Origin: a virus
Direction: 5' to 3' (one strand)
DNA length: 36,825 nucleotides
IMG/VR virus record: IMGVR_UViG_3300028837_002360
Span: 1 to 36,825 of that record
Shown here piece by piece: positions 5,863 through 36,825 of the stretch. The notes beneath the pieces were generated by a model. It saw nothing but the letters and a program-made list of their open reading frames with translations, was not told the DNA's origin and searched no databases. Numbering within the stretch: position 1 is the first letter of the stretch; each line of letters opens with the position of its first letter. The position numbers and the translations under genes were made by a program.

Positions 5863-6447
5863 TTAAATCCCGAATCCGTTAATAACCTCTTTATTTTCGT
5901 CATCATTTATCCCGATATACCTGAAAGTTACTTTAATATTTCTATGATTCAATAGGTTAGAGATCCTTTCGATACTAATTCCCTGCTTTCTCAGGTGATA
6001 ACCGAAAGTTTTTCTAAGCGTATGGCCTCCAACCTTCTGCTTAATTCCGACTCCCCGGCACCAGGCATTTATTAACTGGTAGGCCCTGATCCTGGTAATT
6101 GCTTTGTTCTTTTTTGATTTCTCGTTAGTGAATAGGTATTGATCCAGGTCGAATATATCAGTCTTTTTCAGATAATAATTTATAGCTTCTATGATCTGCT
6201 TATTGAAAAATACCTTTCGGTTCTTCCCGGTCTTCTGCTCTTTGATATCCAAATAGTCTTTTAGATCCCCCTGACTATTTTTAACATCTCCAAGTCTCAG
6301 GGATAATATGTCCCCGATCCTCAGACCGGAGTTAATACCAAAGACGAATAATAAATAATCTCTCGGATTTTTCTGTCGGTATAGATTCCCTCTAATCTGT
6401 TTTATTTGATTTTCTGATCTGATCGGCTCTACGATATTCATACTCAA
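5863..6447 (-). CDS. int: Short tyrosine recombinase (integrase), catalytic domain only
   Basis: The 194 residues hold the full tyrosine recombinase active site: Arg43 (SGLRIGD), Lys72 or Lys75 (QKTGK), His142 and Arg145 (GHTLRKTF), His168 (LLNHRN) and Tyr177 (TFRYIG). The N-terminal arm-binding and core-binding domains of lambda-type integrases (about 350 residues) are absent, as in compact FimB-like recombinases. It would integrate and excise the phage at att sites; the long noncoding stretch just upstream is the obvious place for attP. A promoter matching TTGCTT-17-TATAAT precedes it, with a GGGGG site before the start. The start may be either of two nearby ATG codons. Confidence 0.9.
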   Translation of the reverse strand: MSMNIVEPIRSENQIKQIRGNLYRQKNPRDYLLFVFGINSGLRIGDILSLRLGDVKNSQGDLKDYLDIKEQKTGKNRKVFFNKQIIEAINYYLKKTDIFDLDQYLFTNEKSKKNKAITRIRAYQLINAWCRGVGIKQKVGGHTLRKTFGYHLRKQGISIERISNLLNHRNIKVTFRYIGINDDENKEVINGFGI

Positions 6448-6515: not shown

Positions 6516-6636
6516 TATATTAAAATAAATTCAAATATTCTATAACCTTTATTTTGTAAGGCTTTCGGAATTATACACAATAAGCATTGTGTTAAATACA
6601 AATCTTTCCAAGTCACCATAGAAAGATCGAATCATT

Positions 6637-6947: not shown

Positions 6948-7170
6948 AATGACATGTTTGTTTCTATACATTTCAGAGCATTTATTCTATAAGACCCCTA
7001 TGATTATACACAATTGCCATTATATTAAGTGAAAAATAAGGGCTTTATTACTGGTTTCTCTAATAACTTCCGATTATTAAAAAAAGTCTTATATCCAATT
7101 TTTTGGACTTCTTACTTAACAAAAGTATCTTTCTCAACCTTTAATTTTCTCATGATCTTCCTTTCCAAAA

Positions 7171-7236
7171 ACAAAAAGCCAGACCAAAAAAGCAATTTCT
7201 GCTTTTTCAATCTGGCCCTCTAAATTGGAGCTCTGG
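7171..7236 (-). terminator. AGAGCTCC-box terminator, copy 2 (end of early operon)
   Basis: On the minus strand the AGAGCTCC box (7234-7227) precedes GCCAGA...TCTGGC (stem 7211-7216 with 7178-7183), with an inner AAAAGC/GCTTTT stem and then CTTTTTG. It closes the transcription unit that ends with the 58-residue gene. Confidence 0.75.
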
Positions 7237-7284
7237 AATATTTAATTTTCTAATTCACTTATTTTATTATCCTACTATCTAATA

Positions 7285-7461
7285 TTACCTAATACTATAG
7301 TAGTATATGTCTTCATAAGATTCTTCTCTTTGTTCATTTATTCTGAAATGAGGCAATAAACTTTCTTCTATCTTTGCGTACTTGCCTCTTTTAGTTTTTT
7401 CTAAGAAAGTTAATAACGCTTTTTCCTCTTTTTGTCTTAACTCTTTTCTTTTTACTTTCAT
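7285..7461 (-). CDS. Small charged protein, 58 aa
   Basis: It starts at an ATG preceded by a perfect GGAGGAGG ribosome binding site, just after the serine protease gene, and ends before the copy-2 terminator. The product is rich in Lys, Glu and Arg (MKVKRKELRQ at the start) and ends with tyrosines (EDIYYYSIR). No family is recognised. It is the last gene of the accessory cassette. Confidence 0.75.
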   Translation of the reverse strand: MKVKRKELRQKEEKALLTFLEKTKRGKYAKIEESLLPHFRINEQREESYEDIYYYSIR

Positions 7462-7476
7462 AATTCCTCCTCCTTG

Positions 7477-8655
7477 TTAAATAAGAACTTTTCTACCTAT
7501 TTTCATTTCAATTTGGTTTTTAATTCCTAAAAGATCTATTTCGAATCCACATTTACAAATGAGTTTAGCATCTTTTGGAAAAGGTATAAATCCTTTATTT
7601 TTAAAGTCTATATCAGTCTGGGGATTAGGTGCAAATTTTGCATATATTTTATGAATTTCCCCACACTTTGTGCATCTTTGTTCAAATTCAGCTACATCAA
7701 CTCTTACCTTCCCTGGTATTTTTATTGGAGTTCCAGCATGAACAGCATGTCTAAACATTTTATTATCCTGAGTTGCGCATATCTTATAAGACGTTGTACT
7801 TTCAAAAATCATTCTACAAACTGTTTGGATTCTATACACAATCTCAGCCAATTTTGGGTCATTATCTAGCCTTGTTATCTTTACTCCAATTTCCTCTAAA
7901 TTATCAATTTTTATTGACCTTCCATGTAATCTCCACTTAGAATGATTTGTTAATTCCTTTGCAATCTCCTCTGCTCGTTTCCTTTTCATTTCTTCAGTTA
8001 CAGGTATTTTATTGGTTTCGGTAACAGTCCAATTTTTGAATTTGTAATTTATCAACCATTCAACTACCAAATCTTCAGCAAATTTTAATGCATGGAATAC
8101 ACTACCTAATTCACCAGGGGTAATCTGTGCTACTATCGTAGCGTCAAATGGGTTTAACCTATTTTGTTTTTCTGCTTCTTCCCTTTTCTCTTTAACCCAT
8201 TCCATGTAGTCATATGCTGATATTATAGAACGTCCAATTTTCATTTGCGCATCAATCGGTCCCAAGCTCCCAGTTTCAGTCATTAAAATTTCGTTACCTG
8301 ATAAAACAATAATTGTGCCGGCGCTTTTAGCCTCCCCAGATATTACAAAGGATACCATATCAAAATTATTGTGTAGGAACTTGACTATTTCTTCTGCTGT
8401 TTCGCCACTTCCTCCCGGTGTTTCGATATACATATCAACTTTCTTAAAGTCTTTTTTGCTTGCCAATAAATCATGAATTACATAAAAGTCTGATTGTTCT
8501 AATGAAACAGCAGGGATTGGTTTTCCAATCGCAGCAGCAAAAACAAATAAATAGGTATCTCTCAATTTATTGTAATTTAATATTAATGTCATTAATTCGG
8601 ATTCTAATTCAGGTATACTTAATTTTCTTTTAATATATTCATCTATTAAGCTCAT
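7477..8655 (-). CDS. SDH_sah-type serine protease (ClpP/SppA fold) with C-terminal zinc site
   Basis: The 392 residues show the crotonase/ClpP fold of the serine dehydrogenase proteinase family (PF01972): oxyanion-type PGGSGE at 80-85, nucleophile candidate Ser111 in AKSAGT and GSLGPIDAQ at 129-137. Residues 328-369 add Cys pairs (CTKC and CKC), which suggests a zinc ribbon. SppA-like relatives cut membrane or signal peptides; the substrate here is unknown. There is no signal peptide. The ribosome binding site is weak. It sits in a non-structural cassette with a nuclease and a radical SAM enzyme, not beside the head genes, so it is not the prohead protease. Confidence 0.75.
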   Translation of the reverse strand: MSLIDEYIKRKLSIPELESELMTLILNYNKLRDTYLFVFAAAIGKPIPAVSLEQSDFYVIHDLLASKKDFKKVDMYIETPGGSGETAEEIVKFLHNNFDMVSFVISGEAKSAGTIIVLSGNEILMTETGSLGPIDAQMKIGRSIISAYDYMEWVKEKREEAEKQNRLNPFDATIVAQITPGELGSVFHALKFAEDLVVEWLINYKFKNWTVTETNKIPVTEEMKRKRAEEIAKELTNHSKWRLHGRSIKIDNLEEIGVKITRLDNDPKLAEIVYRIQTVCRMIFESTTSYKICATQDNKMFRHAVHAGTPIKIPGKVRVDVAEFEQRCTKCGEIHKIYAKFAPNPQTDIDFKNKGFIPFPKDAKLICKCGFEIDLLGIKNQIEMKIGRKVLI

Positions 8656-8725
8656 ATTTTTATCTCTTTATAAACTTTTTTATTTAATTTTATCACTTTT
8701 TCTCTTCTGATTCAATAGTTGTTTT

Positions 8726-8911
8726 TTAACTGTTGTTTTTTAATCTCACCATCACCTTTTCCTCAATCTCACAATTTACAATATTAATTTGATTGCAGCG
8801 GGGACATTTAATCTCAATTATTCTGCTTTCTCCATTTTTTATATCAAAGCCTGGTGATCCAATAAATAATTTTCGGTTACAATTTGCACATCTTACTTCT
8901 ATTTTTTTTAT
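8726..8911 (-). CDS. Com-like zinc finger protein, 61 aa, apparent ATA start
   Basis: The frame encodes two Cys pairs (VRCANC at 8-11 and CPRC at 36-39) spaced as in the Mu Com translational regulator, with the same RC..CN..LF...IEIKCPRC layout. In frame there is no ATG, GTG or TTG between the upstream TAG and the first Cys pair. An AGGTGG site lies 6 bases before an ATA codon at 8911, so ATA is the best-placed start; a second ATA lies at 8902. In Mu, Com unmasks the start of the mom modification gene. No mom homologue was seen here. The protein sequence is convincing; the start is inferred. Confidence 0.65.
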   Translation of the reverse strand: MKKIEVRCANCNRKLFIGSPGFDIKNGESRIIEIKCPRCNQINIVNCEIEEKVMVRLKNNS

Positions 8912-8940
8912 TTTATACCACCTGCCCTATTAAAGTCAAT

Positions 8941-9378
8941 TTACTCCCATCCGGGAATCAGCCTACCATATTTTTCTATCTCTTTATAGCTTATTATTTC
9001 TTCAAAGTCTATTCCCAGATCATCACATATAAATTTAATCATTTCTCCGTTGGCTTTATCCCTAGCGTACTTATCGGGAATTACAAATCTCAATCTCTTA
9101 AATTCCTCCGGATAATATTTTTTGAATCTCCTCAGTTTTGTTTTATCAACTGGCCTAGAATAGCCCTTTACCTCAATAAATACTCTTTGTTGTGTTGGCA
9201 AATAAAAATCAGGTTTATAATATTTTGTGCCTCTTTTAATATTTTCAAATTTATATTCCCTTGGTTCATAAAACCATATTATTTTTATATAATTAAAATA
9301 TCTCGCTATATTAGCTTCCATCTTACTCCGGAAATATTGCTTTAAATCTTCCCGGTAACCGCCTTTGGCTACTTCCAT
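8941..9378 (-). CDS. PD-(D/E)XK nuclease
   Basis: The 145 residues show Glu22 in KMEANIARYF, then YYKPDFYLP near residue 53 and VFIEVKGYS near 66: the E, PD and ExK elements of the PD-(D/E)XK nuclease fold. Small phage enzymes of this kind act as Holliday-junction or single-copy endonucleases, or as VRR-like nucleases. It overlaps the end of the radical SAM gene by 10 bases, so the two are coupled. The exact family and DNA target are not evident. Confidence 0.75.
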   Translation of the reverse strand: MEVAKGGYREDLKQYFRSKMEANIARYFNYIKIIWFYEPREYKFENIKRGTKYYKPDFYLPTQQRVFIEVKGYSRPVDKTKLRRFKKYYPEEFKRLRFVIPDKYARDKANGEMIKFICDDLGIDFEEIISYKEIEKYGRLIPGWE

Positions 9379-10262
9379 TTTCTATATTCCTCCCAGGTAC
9401 AAGATTTAAATATCCAGGGTCTATTCACCCATCTCATAAAATCTTTATATTTTCTACTTTTTAATTCATTGTTATAATTCATAACATAGGGCCTAATTGA
9501 TCCTCGACTATCTTTGATATTTCTTAATCTTTCTATTCTGTAAAGATCTTCCTCAAAAGTGGTGTCAAAACCGATCAGGACATATACAGTTATATTTCTT
9601 GGCTTGATTCCCGCCTTAATAACAAGATCTAATCCTCTTATTATTTCAGTTTCATCTTTAATATTATCCCAGGCAAATCTTATCATTTCCTTATGCTTTA
9701 TCTCGGCCAGCAGCTTAGCATTTTCTTTATTTACAAGTCGGACATCCAATCCCTGGTTAAAATCCATTCGCCAGCCCTTATCAATATATTTTTGTAATTT
9801 CTTAATATGAGAAGGCAAAGCCAGAAAATTATTATATAATAAAACTACTACGTTGGATTTAGGATTTAAAAATTCTTCTACTTCTGCATGCTCTCTGATC
9901 TTCCCTTCTTTCTCTGGTACTATACAAAATTTACAATTCCTGATACAGCCCCGGGTAGTAAAGCCTAAAGAATAGTCAAGATCATATAGTTCATAATCTG
10001 GCATAAAATGCTCCACCTCTCTTGGTAATTTTATTTCTAAGTCAAAACCTGATCCGCCAGCCCGATAAAAATTTTCAGGTATATAACATTCATTGATATT
10101 AAATTTTGTAAATATCTTTGAAATATATACCCTATCGTAAGTTTTTAAAAATAATGGACTATATAATTCTGTTTCATCGCCTTTTTGTTTATGATAAGCA
10201 GACAATTTCATTAAAGCTAAATTATGATATTTTGAATCAATATCAAATAGTCCGACCTTCAT
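9369..10262 (-). CDS. Radical SAM enzyme
   Basis: The CxxxCxxC cluster motif is C106-C110-C113 (RGCIRNCKFC) in the 297-residue product counted from the chosen start. A start 27 codons further upstream exists, but MKVGLFDIDS is the typical beginning of this phage/bacterial group, and the upstream gene ends 2 bases before this ATG. The N-terminal 100 residues look like a degenerate B12-binding-type domain, followed by a partial TIM barrel (WRMDFNQGLDVRL, then VYVLIGFDTTFEED). The substrate is unknown. It could modify a nucleic acid base or a protein, but nothing in the sequence decides this. Confidence 0.8.
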   Translation of the reverse strand: MKVGLFDIDSKYHNLALMKLSAYHKQKGDETELYSPLFLKTYDRVYISKIFTKFNINECYIPENFYRAGGSGFDLEIKLPREVEHFMPDYELYDLDYSLGFTTRGCIRNCKFCIVPEKEGKIREHAEVEEFLNPKSNVVVLLYNNFLALPSHIKKLQKYIDKGWRMDFNQGLDVRLVNKENAKLLAEIKHKEMIRFAWDNIKDETEIIRGLDLVIKAGIKPRNITVYVLIGFDTTFEEDLYRIERLRNIKDSRGSIRPYVMNYNNELKSRKYKDFMRWVNRPWIFKSCTWEEYRKWK

Positions 10263-10264
10263 GA

Positions 10265-10417
10265 TCAAATCTTGCCTAATATTTTTAATATAAAAATAAC
10301 TTCCATAATCACCACTGTCCCGAAAAGCGCCCACCAAGCCCAATCGTTAACCTCTTCTGCTTTTTTAACCGGGCTACTAAATCCTTTAATCTTTTCATAG
10401 CCTACTTTGAATTTCAT
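10265..10417 (-). CDS. Small single-pass membrane protein, 50 aa
   Basis: It starts at an ATG with a GAAGGTGATT site, directly after the stop of the preceding gene, and stops 2 bases before the radical SAM start. The N-terminal 27 residues are basic and hydrophilic; residues 27-48 (WAWWALFGTVVIMEVIFILK) form one membrane helix. It lies in a frame different from the longer start proposed for the radical SAM gene. The function is unknown. Confidence 0.75.
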   Translation of the reverse strand: MKFKVGYEKIKGFSSPVKKAEEVNDWAWWALFGTVVIMEVIFILKILGKI

Positions 10418-12841: not shown

Positions 12842-13570
12842 TTATTTATAGTTAGGAAATATCTTTATCTTTTCCGGATAGATATTTTTTAGGCTATCCT
12901 TTAGATAAACCGGGATATTATTCCACTTACAATAATTTACTATATTCTCTATCCATTCTTTTTTTGGTATGATCTTTCCTTTCCTATTTCCGGTTTCTGC
13001 CCCCAGGATCACCCAATCAATATTTGCGTTTGAAAATGGTCTAGGGTTAATATGCTCGAGGATGGGTTCAACCGATACAAAAGTTATATGACAACTCGTA
13101 ACAAATAGACAAGGGATTCCTCTCTCAAAATCTTTTTCTCTTGTTATGGTTACCCCCAGCCAACAGTTCTTCGGGAAAATATGCCTATCGTAGACCTCCG
13201 GATATCTTGTCAGAAATTGGAAGATATGCTGGGGATATAATTTTACTTTTTCCAATACCTTTTCCAGCCATCTATCTTCCCAGTAAGCTATTTCGCTCAT
13301 CGATCCCACGAATATCTTTTGGGTTTTTTGGGGAAACTTTTTATCAAATTGAGCCCTTAAAAACGTAAGTTTAAAATCTTTTAATCCGGACAAATAATCT
13401 CCGGTCCAGGCCCAGGTGGGATGTTTTTTCCAATGGTGACAAAACTCAATTTCAGTCATTTGCTTATAACGGAAACTTGCTATCTTTCGAGCATAACAAT
13501 ATTCACATTTATTAAGACAGCCCCAAACCGGATTCCAGGTGGTATTACACCACCCAATTTTATTTTTCAT
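12842..13570 (-). CDS. DUF5131 (phage Gp37/Gp68) radical SAM-like protein
   Basis: 242 residues. The hallmark WNPVWGCLNKCEYCYA gives C18-C22-C25, a CxxxCxxC iron-sulfur motif. It continues with FVGSMSEIAYWEDRW, FQFLTRYP, WLGVTI and SVEPIL, as in the DUF5131 family common in phages and prophages. The reaction is unknown. It lies next to two DNA methyltransferases and in the replication/modification block, which hints at nucleic-acid modification, though this is only context. Confidence 0.85.
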   Translation of the reverse strand: MKNKIGWCNTTWNPVWGCLNKCEYCYARKIASFRYKQMTEIEFCHHWKKHPTWAWTGDYLSGLKDFKLTFLRAQFDKKFPQKTQKIFVGSMSEIAYWEDRWLEKVLEKVKLYPQHIFQFLTRYPEVYDRHIFPKNCWLGVTITREKDFERGIPCLFVTSCHITFVSVEPILEHINPRPFSNANIDWVILGAETGNRKGKIIPKKEWIENIVNYCKWNNIPVYLKDSLKNIYPEKIKIFPNYK

Positions 13571-13581
13571 ATTTGACCCCT

Positions 13582-15174
13582 TTAAAAAATTCTTTGCTGA
13601 ACTTTAGCTATTCTTCTTTTAGCCATATCGATATATTCCTGTTTTATCTCAATACCGATAAACCTTTTTCTTTGCTTTAAAGCCACCAATGCAGTGGTCC
13701 CGGCTCCCATAAATGGATCTAAAACTATCCCGCTTTCAAAACCTGCATTGCAGCCACAATCGGAATAGCCAATAAATTTTCTTGAAATACTTTTCCAATC
13801 TTCATTGTAATTTTGTTTTTCTTCTCCGCTTGCTTTTACTTGTGGACTCGGATAATCAACTTTAGCTCGGCGGACTCTTATATTCATTGAACCTTCCCTT
13901 TCTAATTCAAATATCTTTACCCTTGCCTTCCCACATTTTTTACATACAAATTCCGGACAACCTGCCTTAATCGGTATTTCAATCAACCCTTCCGGATATA
14001 CTGCAAAATGGGCTTCAGGGAATGGCTGGGTTGGTATGATCCAGACACAGCGCTTGTTTCGACCTTGACTAAAATTTATATGATCTTTATAAGGCTCATC
14101 TCTGTTTAATCCGCTTGAATGGTTGAAAGATTTAGTTCCAGGAGAACACCAATTATATTTTGCTCTTTTTATTGTGGCTTCTGCTATATCATCAAACTGC
14201 TGTTCAAACCAATAATCGTGGCTAGCCCAAAATGAAACTTTAATCTTACCTAATCCCTTACATCTTTTACATTCTTCTTGTTTTGTTATTCTGTGGTATC
14301 TGGCTCTTGGACTTCCCATATTTTCAGCATCTTTTTTATTTATCTTTGTTTCTCCACCAGTGCCTTGACATCTTGGACAGGGTCTCCATTCCCAATCTTT
14401 ACCTTCTATTCCCTTAATTCCCAGTGGGTTTTTGCTTACGCAGTCTAAAGTTTTTTCATTGGTCCAGAATATAGCTTTATTGTTTTTGGTAAAGAAAAAT
14501 AGATATTCAAAATCTATGGTGAATCTATTCGGGGCACTCGAAGGCATACAATTCGGTTTCCACCATATAATTGTATTTCTCTTGATCCAACCTCGGTTAA
14601 TCATTTCTATTGAAAATCGGTAGGGAATATCCAGTAAACTTTTTTCATAGCCTCTAGTAGCTTTTTGATTACCTTCTGTAGCTCCATATCCTATTGTCAA
14701 GCGGTTAAGATTAGAAGTTTCTAAAGTATGGCCACTACGATTGCCACTTCCACCATAGCTATCTCCTATATTTACCCAGCAGGTCCCGCCTTTCCTTAAT
14801 ACTCTTTTAACCTCATCAAAGATCTGGCACAAATGTTTTATATATAAATAAAAAGTAGGCTCGAGGCCCAGGCTACCACGCCAGGCACCGCATTTAATAC
14901 AAAAGCAATTACCTTTATCATCAGAAGCTCCTTTATCCTTAAACCAGCTTTCTTTACCCGGATTAGTTTCGCCTGATTTATGCTTTAAAGTAATAGTTTT
15001 ATTTCCCCAAATATGTTTACAGTTCTCATCCCCATCCCATATAACTGGATCAATCCCATAATCTCGGAGTCCCCAATAAGGTGGGGAGCATACACAGCAA
15101 TTAACCGATTCTGCCGGTAATTGTGTTAATATTTCTAGATCATTGCCGCATAATATTTTATTTATATAATCCAT
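13582..15174 (-). CDS. DNA methyltransferase, N4/N6 (beta-class) with zinc-ribbon inserts
   Basis: 530 residues. Motif IV is SPPY at 30-33 and comes first; the SAM-binding motif I, LDPFMGAGTTAL, is near residue 492, followed by FIGIEIKQEYIDMAKRR. That order is the beta class of amino-methyltransferases; SPPY is more usual for N4-cytosine, but N6-adenine is possible. The length exceeds a typical 280-350-residue enzyme because of Cys-rich inserts: CPRCQGTGG and CKRCKGLG (residues 267-310, DnaJ-like) and CKKCGK near 415. It would protect phage DNA from host restriction. No cognate endonuclease is adjacent. Confidence 0.85.
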   Translation of the reverse strand: MDYINKILCGNDLEILTQLPAESVNCCVCSPPYWGLRDYGIDPVIWDGDENCKHIWGNKTITLKHKSGETNPGKESWFKDKGASDDKGNCFCIKCGAWRGSLGLEPTFYLYIKHLCQIFDEVKRVLRKGGTCWVNIGDSYGGSGNRSGHTLETSNLNRLTIGYGATEGNQKATRGYEKSLLDIPYRFSIEMINRGWIKRNTIIWWKPNCMPSSAPNRFTIDFEYLFFFTKNNKAIFWTNEKTLDCVSKNPLGIKGIEGKDWEWRPCPRCQGTGGETKINKKDAENMGSPRARYHRITKQEECKRCKGLGKIKVSFWASHDYWFEQQFDDIAEATIKRAKYNWCSPGTKSFNHSSGLNRDEPYKDHINFSQGRNKRCVWIIPTQPFPEAHFAVYPEGLIEIPIKAGCPEFVCKKCGKARVKIFELEREGSMNIRVRRAKVDYPSPQVKASGEEKQNYNEDWKSISRKFIGYSDCGCNAGFESGIVLDPFMGAGTTALVALKQRKRFIGIEIKQEYIDMAKRRIAKVQQRIF

Positions 15175-35831: not shown

Positions 35832-36752
35832 TTAAGTTATTGCTGGAGATATCCTATATCCGCAGGCAGCACAAATTATTTTTTCTACTTCTTTATCTCC
35901 TACTTCAATCCAGTCACTATGTTTTGTTTCTATTCTTGCTCTTCTGGTTTGAAATTTTTGAGATTGGAAGGTATAACCTAAAGAGAATTTCTTTAATCCA
36001 GGTTTAGGTTCTACATAAGCCAATATGGCATTCTTGCCCCAAAGATAAGATAAACTTTCAGCCTTTCCTTCTTTGGCTGTATTATAACCAGCTTTACCGA
36101 TTATTACTCTATCCACTCCGAATAATTCAGCCATAAGGTCAGCAGTAATTACACCCTTTTGGCTATATTTAATCCGCTCCAAAATTTTAGGATGATGTTT
36201 CAACTTATCGTAAACAGGTTTTGCCAATAACAATATATTAGGATCTCTGAAAATTACCGCATGTACAGCTTCCTTCCCTTCTTCAATATCAGCTATTGGG
36301 TCAGTCCCGGTAGCTTCAGTATAATCAGACCAAACACCACTTGTAGGAGCATTGGCCGATAAGGCTGCTTCTAACATAGTTTTAATTCTCATCTCTAAAC
36401 TTAATTGAACGATATCAGTTAAAAATTCTGTAGTATCTACATCAATGTTCAAAGGTTTATCAGCGTTGTCTCTTTCATCATCATCAATTAAATCATTTAA
36501 GGCATATTCATTACAGACATAGCCATCAGTGTCCACTTTCCAATCTACGGTTCTTGAATCAGTCTTAGGGGCCCGCAAAGTTTTGGGAATCCTAAACCGA
36601 TCAGCTTTTGAATTATATATATAATATATATCCGATTTCTTTTTTACCGGCACAACCGGCACTATTTGCAATCCGACATAGGCCTCATTGCTATATTTTA
36701 TGGATATATTAGTTAAAATTTTGTCAACATGAACATTTTTAGGTTCTGGCAT
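35832..36752 (-). CDS. Major capsid protein (HK97 fold)
   Basis: 306 residues, in capsid position after the cement protein. The pattern VHVDKILTNISIKYSNEAYV, IVPVVPVKKKSDIYYIYNSK, DDLIDDDERDNADKPLNIDV, LLAKPVYDKLKHHPKILERI, KKFSLGYTFQS is that of a phage major capsid group with a Mu/HK97-like fold. It has a strong AAAGGAG site before the ATG. The gene spans the ends of the circular map; its start is repeated at 1-47. Confidence 0.8.
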   Translation of the reverse strand: MPEPKNVHVDKILTNISIKYSNEAYVGLQIVPVVPVKKKSDIYYIYNSKADRFRIPKTLRAPKTDSRTVDWKVDTDGYVCNEYALNDLIDDDERDNADKPLNIDVDTTEFLTDIVQLSLEMRIKTMLEAALSANAPTSGVWSDYTEATGTDPIADIEEGKEAVHAVIFRDPNILLLAKPVYDKLKHHPKILERIKYSQKGVITADLMAELFGVDRVIIGKAGYNTAKEGKAESLSYLWGKNAILAYVEPKPGLKKFSLGYTFQSQKFQTRRARIETKHSDWIEVGDKEVEKIICAACGYRISPAIT

Positions 36753-36825
36753 CTATTTTCAACTCCTTTCTTTTTTAAATTATTTATTAAGCACCAACTT
36801 TAAGATGCATTTTAGTAATCAGAAC
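36706..36825. repeat. Right copy of 120-bp direct terminal repeat
   Basis: Exact copy of bases 1-120. It contains the start of the major capsid gene and the last 39 bases of the capsid cement gene, so both genes are continuous on the circular molecule. Confidence 0.95.
36787..36825 (-). CDS. Capsid cement protein, 3' fragment at contig edge
   Basis: Repeats the last 13 codons (including the stop) of the cement gene that is complete at 82-462. Confidence 0.9.
   Translation of the reverse strand, partial: VLITKMHLKVGA

Follow-up and report, generated by a model that had tools for sequence, protein, structure and literature searches.

The viral genome record IMGVR_UViG_3300028837_002360 of the IMG/VR database carries six compact genes between positions 7,285 and 10,417, and the question raised by this locus is whether they form a single accessory cassette, as a first-pass annotation had proposed, and what the cargo among them does. 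The window, i.e., the whole stretch of DNA analysed, is 36,825 bp long and is listed as a virus record. All six open reading frames (ORFs) of the earlier annotation were found, on the minus strand and with small corrections. The stretch is composed of two units: a conserved early-region block of the phage itself, which holds four of the six genes (a membrane peptide, a radical S-adenosylmethionine (SAM) protein, a nuclease, and a Com-like zinc protein), and an inserted two-gene module, which encodes a serine dehydrogenase proteinase (SDH)-type protease and a 58-amino-acid partner. That this pair is a mobile protease-partner module carried as a moron is well supported; that it protects the carrier cell from other phages, as a defence or superinfection-exclusion system, is the reading that we favour on the basis of gene contexts and consider fairly probable. 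The module and the elements around it are as follows.

7269..8721, minus strand: inserted module of protease and partner, approximately 1.45 kb, placed by DNA alignment with relatives after the com stop and ahead of the early-operon terminator
7477..8655, minus strand: SDH-type serine protease of predicted ClpP fold, 392 amino acids (PF01972, 48.3 bits against a cut-off of 31.3)
7285..7461, minus strand: partner protein of 58 amino acids, family A, with a conserved C-terminal tail YYYSIR; a homologue lies directly 3' of the protease at 11 loci in several phyla
7174..7220, minus strand: intrinsic terminator of the early operon, part of the backbone and not of the insert (20-bp stem, -28.4 kcal/mol, z -6.4)
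8687..8715, minus strand: promoter-like site TTGAAT-N17-TAAAAT, with TG before the -10 element, upstream of the protease

The separation of the two units became apparent when all window genes were mapped on the related loci (designated by L numbers below). The membrane peptide, radical SAM, nuclease, and com genes occur in this fixed order in approximately 20 related phage contigs, and approximately 10 further contigs keep the peptide, the nuclease, and com and lack the radical SAM gene; the protease and the 58-amino-acid gene were present in none of these approximately 30 block-bearing contigs. In the viral-contig scans, the protease was recovered from two near-identical contigs only, compared to 30 contigs for the radical SAM protein and 80 or more for the nuclease. 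Hence, the joint neighbourhood of the radical SAM, nuclease, and SDH genes, which the first-pass annotation had suggested as a check, was wide for the former two, whereas the SDH gene accompanied them in the two near-identical contigs alone. The genes are compact and co-directional in the window genome, as one functional cassette would be; however, relatives keep four of them and lack the remaining two, which for their part travel elsewhere without the four. The synteny comparison with related contigs thus led us to reject a six-gene cassette, which we regard as highly improbable.

The boundaries of the insert were delimited by pairwise DNA alignments. L063 is colinear with the window across the insert, since window positions 9177-8722 correspond to L063 8007-8479 and window positions 7164-7104 correspond to L063 8479-8539. 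In L048, com is joined straight to the terminator region (window 7268-7134), and a different ORF of 57 amino acids occupies the slot of the insert in L041 and L042. The pair therefore occupies approximately 8721-7269, from the com stop to the terminator, and the gap between com and the terminator is a cargo slot. The early-operon terminator itself is conserved in L042 and L048. As expected for a moron, the pair is absent from close colinear relatives and has been horizontally transferred, and the assumption of the first-pass annotation that cargo resides at this place was borne out for the protease and the 58-amino-acid gene. The site upstream of the protease is a weak candidate for a promoter of the module's own, because 37 such sites were counted in the region and 28 +/- 5 are expected by chance.

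The protease matched PF01972 (SDH_protease) with an E-value of 9e-13 and phrog_11747 with 6e-46. The putative triad S111-D135-H244 is invariant in 19/19 aligned homologues, among 15 invariant columns, and the alignment includes short forms of approximately 300 amino acids without the C-terminal part, which in the window protein carries a zinc-ribbon-like CxxC...CxCG tail. The Ser-Asp-His order is that of PF01972. The AlphaFold model (predicted local distance difference test score, pLDDT, 82) matched 1510-N (Z 12.9), ClpP (approximately 12.5), and SppA in the PDB; in the structure of SppA 4kwb, one of the top matches, the active sites hold the protein's own C-termini. The score against the NCBIfam equivalog NF047768 (Clp_like_SDH), 53.6 bits, was far under the 250 of that model. 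Judged from sequence and model, the protein is a cytosolic SDH-type protease of ClpP fold with a predicted Ser-Asp-His triad.

No library family matched the 58-amino-acid protein. Nevertheless, its ORF was found at 2e-22, above every shuffled sequence, by a hidden Markov model (HMM) built without it, and it is a real gene. Pair loci were gathered with the protease as the query, and essentially all long-form loci examined whose downstream end lies on the contig have, as the next gene after the protease, a same-strand ORF of 53-75 amino acids that starts within approximately 90 nt. These partners fall into two families. In family A, to which the window protein belongs, a helix-like stretch and a 'GKYAK' region are combined with a YYYSxR- or FGLS-type tail; family B is marked by D(F/Y)SIIF close to the N-terminus and by tails such as MTFS, TTFA, or YTMT. 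Leave-one-out testing with HMMs recovered 11/11 members of family A and 13/14 members of family B above every shuffled sequence, and the small downstream ORFs of L122 and L167 could be assigned to neither family. A BLAST search of the Leptospira partner against the window protein gave nothing, and their homology is visible only through the family profile. In the maximum-likelihood tree of 33 proteases, families A and B each corresponded to one clade (supports of 100/99 and 98/96), and none of 500 shuffles fitted the protease clades as well as the observed partner families did. Since each partner family belongs to one protease clade, the protease and its partner have been co-inherited.

Relatives beyond the window were collected by genome searches and by scanning viral contigs with an alignment. 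The protease has full-length relatives in a Proteobacteria metagenome-assembled genome (MAG) (76% identity), a Clostridium MAG (61%), a Chitinivibrionia MAG (59%), and a Leptospira plasmid (54%), and the pair is also present in several further MAGs or genomes and in approximately 19 independent viral contigs. The genome-contig scan with the window protease alone gave three relatives only. In a distant branch of short-form proteases, a small gene likewise follows, both in lambdoid prophages of E. coli, where the short-form pair was found in 19/5426 genomes, and in multiubiquitin/E1/DUF6527 operons.

Defence genes recur in the neighbourhood of the pair. In L143, the protease and its partner end a bacteriophage exclusion (BREX) operon, BrxC-PglX-PglZ-BrxL-protease-partner, in which brxL and the protease gene overlap. 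A ThsB-like TIR protein, a Tsp45I endonuclease, and a methyltransferase lie near the pair in L115; a methyltransferase, DUF3800, and AbiEi/AbiEii in L146; and N6-methyltransferase and HsdS-like genes in L148. In the phage L176, GmrSD adjoins the pair. Three Rhizobium plasmids (L128, L183, and L184) carry multiubiquitin, a ThiF-type E1, DUF6527, and a short-form protease in a row; the SDH-type protease is the last enzyme of these operons, and DUF6527 is annotated as hypothetical in one of them.

Lysogeny genes form the other recurrent context, for which repressor and integrase adjacency is given as raw counts. The pair comes immediately after an S24-type repressor gene in L161, L163, L171, and L180, is located between an IrrE/ImmA-like peptidase and an integrase in L156 and L160, and adjoins an integrase in L162 and L174; in a Bacillota prophage the gene order is ImmA-SDH-partner-integrase. 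In both E. coli lambdoid backgrounds inspected, the short-form pair lies just downstream of a LexA/cI-type repressor, i.e., at the position of lambda rexAB.

Based on these contexts, we propose that the pair would shield its carrier, a cell with the phage, plasmid, or island, against other phages. The small partner would bind the protease, probably at the active-site groove and through the partner's conserved C-terminal tail, and would thereby keep the protease silent or aim it. Infection by another phage might disturb this state, and the released protease could then cut a phage or host protein and stop the infection. The occupation of the SppA active sites by the protein's own C-termini motivates the tail-gating idea, but does not show it, and both the gating and the infection trigger are speculative. 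We advance only tentatively the broader proposal that SDH proteases with a tail-bearing partner may constitute a widespread, undescribed, stand-alone antiphage family in which the tail gates the protease, and whose protease would have been recruited to BREX and multiubiquitin operons as an additional effector.

Several observations weigh against a protective role. At several loci, neither defence nor lysogeny genes adjoin the pair: in L116 it is located between V-type and F-type ATPase operons, and in L120, L175, and L181 it terminates a tail operon. The window pair ends an early operon of lytic direction, outside any recognised repressor unit. Short forms of the Klebsiella/Acidiphilium type show no clear downstream partner. 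No model of PADLOC-DB 2.0.0 matches the protease or the partner, and a known defence system was rejected on this basis; in a literature coverage that is incomplete and no proof of novelty, no paper was found that ties the SDH protease family to defence. The defence or anti-defence role suggested in the first-pass annotation is plausible for part of the cargo, but not for the six genes as a unit.

Among the alternatives, which rank as lysogeny control, an addiction pair, and anti-defence, the foremost is that induction is controlled through cleavage of a repressor, or of the partner, by the protease, in the manner of ImmA and ImmR. The position of the pair directly after S24/LexA-type repressors, or beside ImmA and an integrase, in many temperate phages is in line with such a role. 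However, the pair also ends a BREX operon and resides in restriction-modification, TIR, and AbiE islands and on plasmids without an adjacent phage repressor, the repressor types that adjoin it are mutually unrelated, and no repressor adjoins it in the window; we therefore consider lysogeny control unlikely. Addiction of the toxin-antitoxin kind, in which the protease would be the toxin and the partner its inhibitor and the pair would stabilise its phage or plasmid, would agree with the two-gene layout, the small co-inherited partner, and the occurrence on plasmids and beside HicAB/AbiE pairs. However, the partner is the downstream gene and the E. coli pair is as rare as stated above, which makes addiction less likely still; the idea overlaps with the defence reading, because many toxin-antitoxin pairs defend.

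The protease could also serve the infecting phage by destroying host defence proteins, and this function would suit both the window pair, which closes the early operon in a position often taken by anti-restriction genes, and a lambdoid copy near ral. Nevertheless, the pair is also part of defence operons and islands of hosts and is placed on the lysogeny side in most temperate phages, so that an anti-defence protease appears improbable. Finally, the protein weakly resembles head maturation families related to ClpP (phrog_53, 2e-8; NF045542, 34 bits), which might suggest the head maturation protease of the window phage. This identity was rejected, since the NF045542 score of 34.1 bits is far below the cut-off of 120 and the gene sits outside the head gene cluster; furthermore, relatives with the same head genes lack the protease, and we give this explanation hardly any credence.

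Compared with the known systems, the window protease shares with PF01972 the fold, the Ser-Asp-His order, and a score over the Pfam cut-off, and differs by a C-terminal zinc-ribbon-like domain and an obligate-looking small partner. Its core fold is also common to 1510-N (the NfeD stomatin-specific protease), SppA, and ClpP. The former two are Ser-Lys proteases linked to the membrane, and ClpP is a Ser-His-Asp protease that works with an ATPase; in contrast, no ATPase gene or signal peptide is apparent for the window protease. BREX and multiubiquitin/E1/DUF6527 operons can carry a member of the protease family as an additional gene at their end, whereas the window pair stands alone, without any of their genes. 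Prophage superinfection-exclusion genes (lambda rexAB position; BstA, PMC8585504) are likewise accessory and reside at the lysogeny locus in temperate phages, and some relatives of the pair lie, as rexAB-position genes do, directly downstream of a repressor. However, the proteins of the window pair are unrelated to those of the rexAB position or to BstA (PMC8585504), and an exclusion role is here suggested by sequence and gene context. The protease family is known, and the small partners, their co-inheritance with the protease, and the defence and lysogeny contexts appear to be new; the literature on the SDH protease family with a ubiquitin-like operon, in a coverage that is incomplete, gave nothing relevant.

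The four genes of the conserved early block are as follows.

10265..10417, minus strand: membrane peptide of 50 amino acids with a single span; syntenic homologues upstream of the radical SAM or nuclease gene in approximately 30 contigs
9369..10262, minus strand: radical SAM protein with CX3CX2C, phrog_9298 family (2.5e-85), adjoining the nuclease in approximately 20 contigs
8941..9378, minus strand: PD-(D/E)XK nuclease, resolvase-like (KPDFYLP...FIEVKG), phrog_945 4e-12 and phrog_9019 3e-11, 80+ relatives
8726..8911, minus strand: Com-like zinc protein with an ATA start and syntenic homologues

The first-pass annotation had described the six genes as compact and partly overlapping. The radical SAM and nuclease genes do overlap, by 10 nt; however, the radical SAM gene starts at the ATG at 10262 (MKVGLFDID...) and not at the TTG at 10343, and therefore lies 2 nt after the membrane peptide without overlap. 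The Cys motif of the radical SAM protein (C106, C110, and C113) is invariant in 12 relatives. Its score against PF04055, 26.2 bits, is just under the curated 29.5, and the weak sequence similarity to MiaB/RimO was too weak for naming a substrate. Its AlphaFold model (pLDDT 74) had no PDB match at E <= 0.001; TIM-barrel-type matches appeared without significance only. Relatives occur in Bacteroides, Oscillospiraceae, and methanogen viruses, several of them near DNA methyltransferases, and the protein is possibly a nucleic-acid modification enzyme. The family is already known from phages: the phrog_9298 proteins of LoVEphage and Methanomassiliicoccales vir215 belong to the same family, at 36-39% identity, and, unlike that of the window, are not beside a nuclease or com.

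The nuclease matches phrog_945/9019 (endonuclease/Holliday-junction resolvase), and its score against phage endonuclease I (PF05367), 20.4 bits, is below the curated 29.1. Because of the PD...EVK residues and the resolvase relatives, it probably resolves recombination or replication junctions. In L009 (2973-3272) and L018 (8488-8787), an unrelated small ORF fills the nuclease slot between the radical SAM gene and com; assigned by eye, it is an apparent non-homologous replacement of VRR-NUC type. The Com-like gene has no ATG, GTG, or TTG start, and ATA is the sole start at the expected place. Among approximately 25 distinct syntenic homologues with intact frames, the start codon was ATG in 16, ATA in 6, and ATT in 1; the start other than ATG was noted in the window gene, L007, L041, L043, L048, L063, and L009. 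This recurring non-canonical start recalls the AUU start of infC. In some relatives, a ParB-like gene and a second radical SAM gene (372-404 amino acids) lie between com and the terminase genes (L007 4826-6681, L010 1834-3489, L048 8745-10600, and L018 9620-11372).

The phage record looks complete, and, since a direct terminal repeat of 120 bp is present at 1-120 and 36706-36825, it is probably a complete circular genome of approximately 36.7 kb. A further gene belongs to the context of the pair.

5863..6447, minus strand: integrase-like tyrosine recombinase, catalytic domain only (PF00589 5.5e-26, phrog_216 4e-56)

This protein has 194 amino acids, and a protein of the same kind is encoded directly upstream of the SDH protease in the phage L174 (5225-5767). 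The non-coding stretch upstream of the integrase contains an imperfect 33-nt direct repeat (76%; 6570-6602 and 7003-7035), which might serve as sites for a recombinase or a regulator. At 12842-15174 of the window (minus strand), another radical SAM protein adjoins a DNA methyltransferase of 530 amino acids and is related to 'radical SAM mobile pair protein A', with a score below the cut-off of that family. An Rfam search found no RNA family anywhere in the window.

If the protective role of the pair is true, a family of proteases with small partners would join the antiphage systems, in a compact two-gene form of approximately 1.4 kb for which phages and plasmids are the vehicles across phyla. 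It would also provide a testable function for a family long annotated only as 'serine dehydrogenase proteinase', and would suggest why the same protease appears in BREX and in the ubiquitin-like operons of bacteria. With the prophage pairs of E. coli, this reading is directly testable in laboratory strains.

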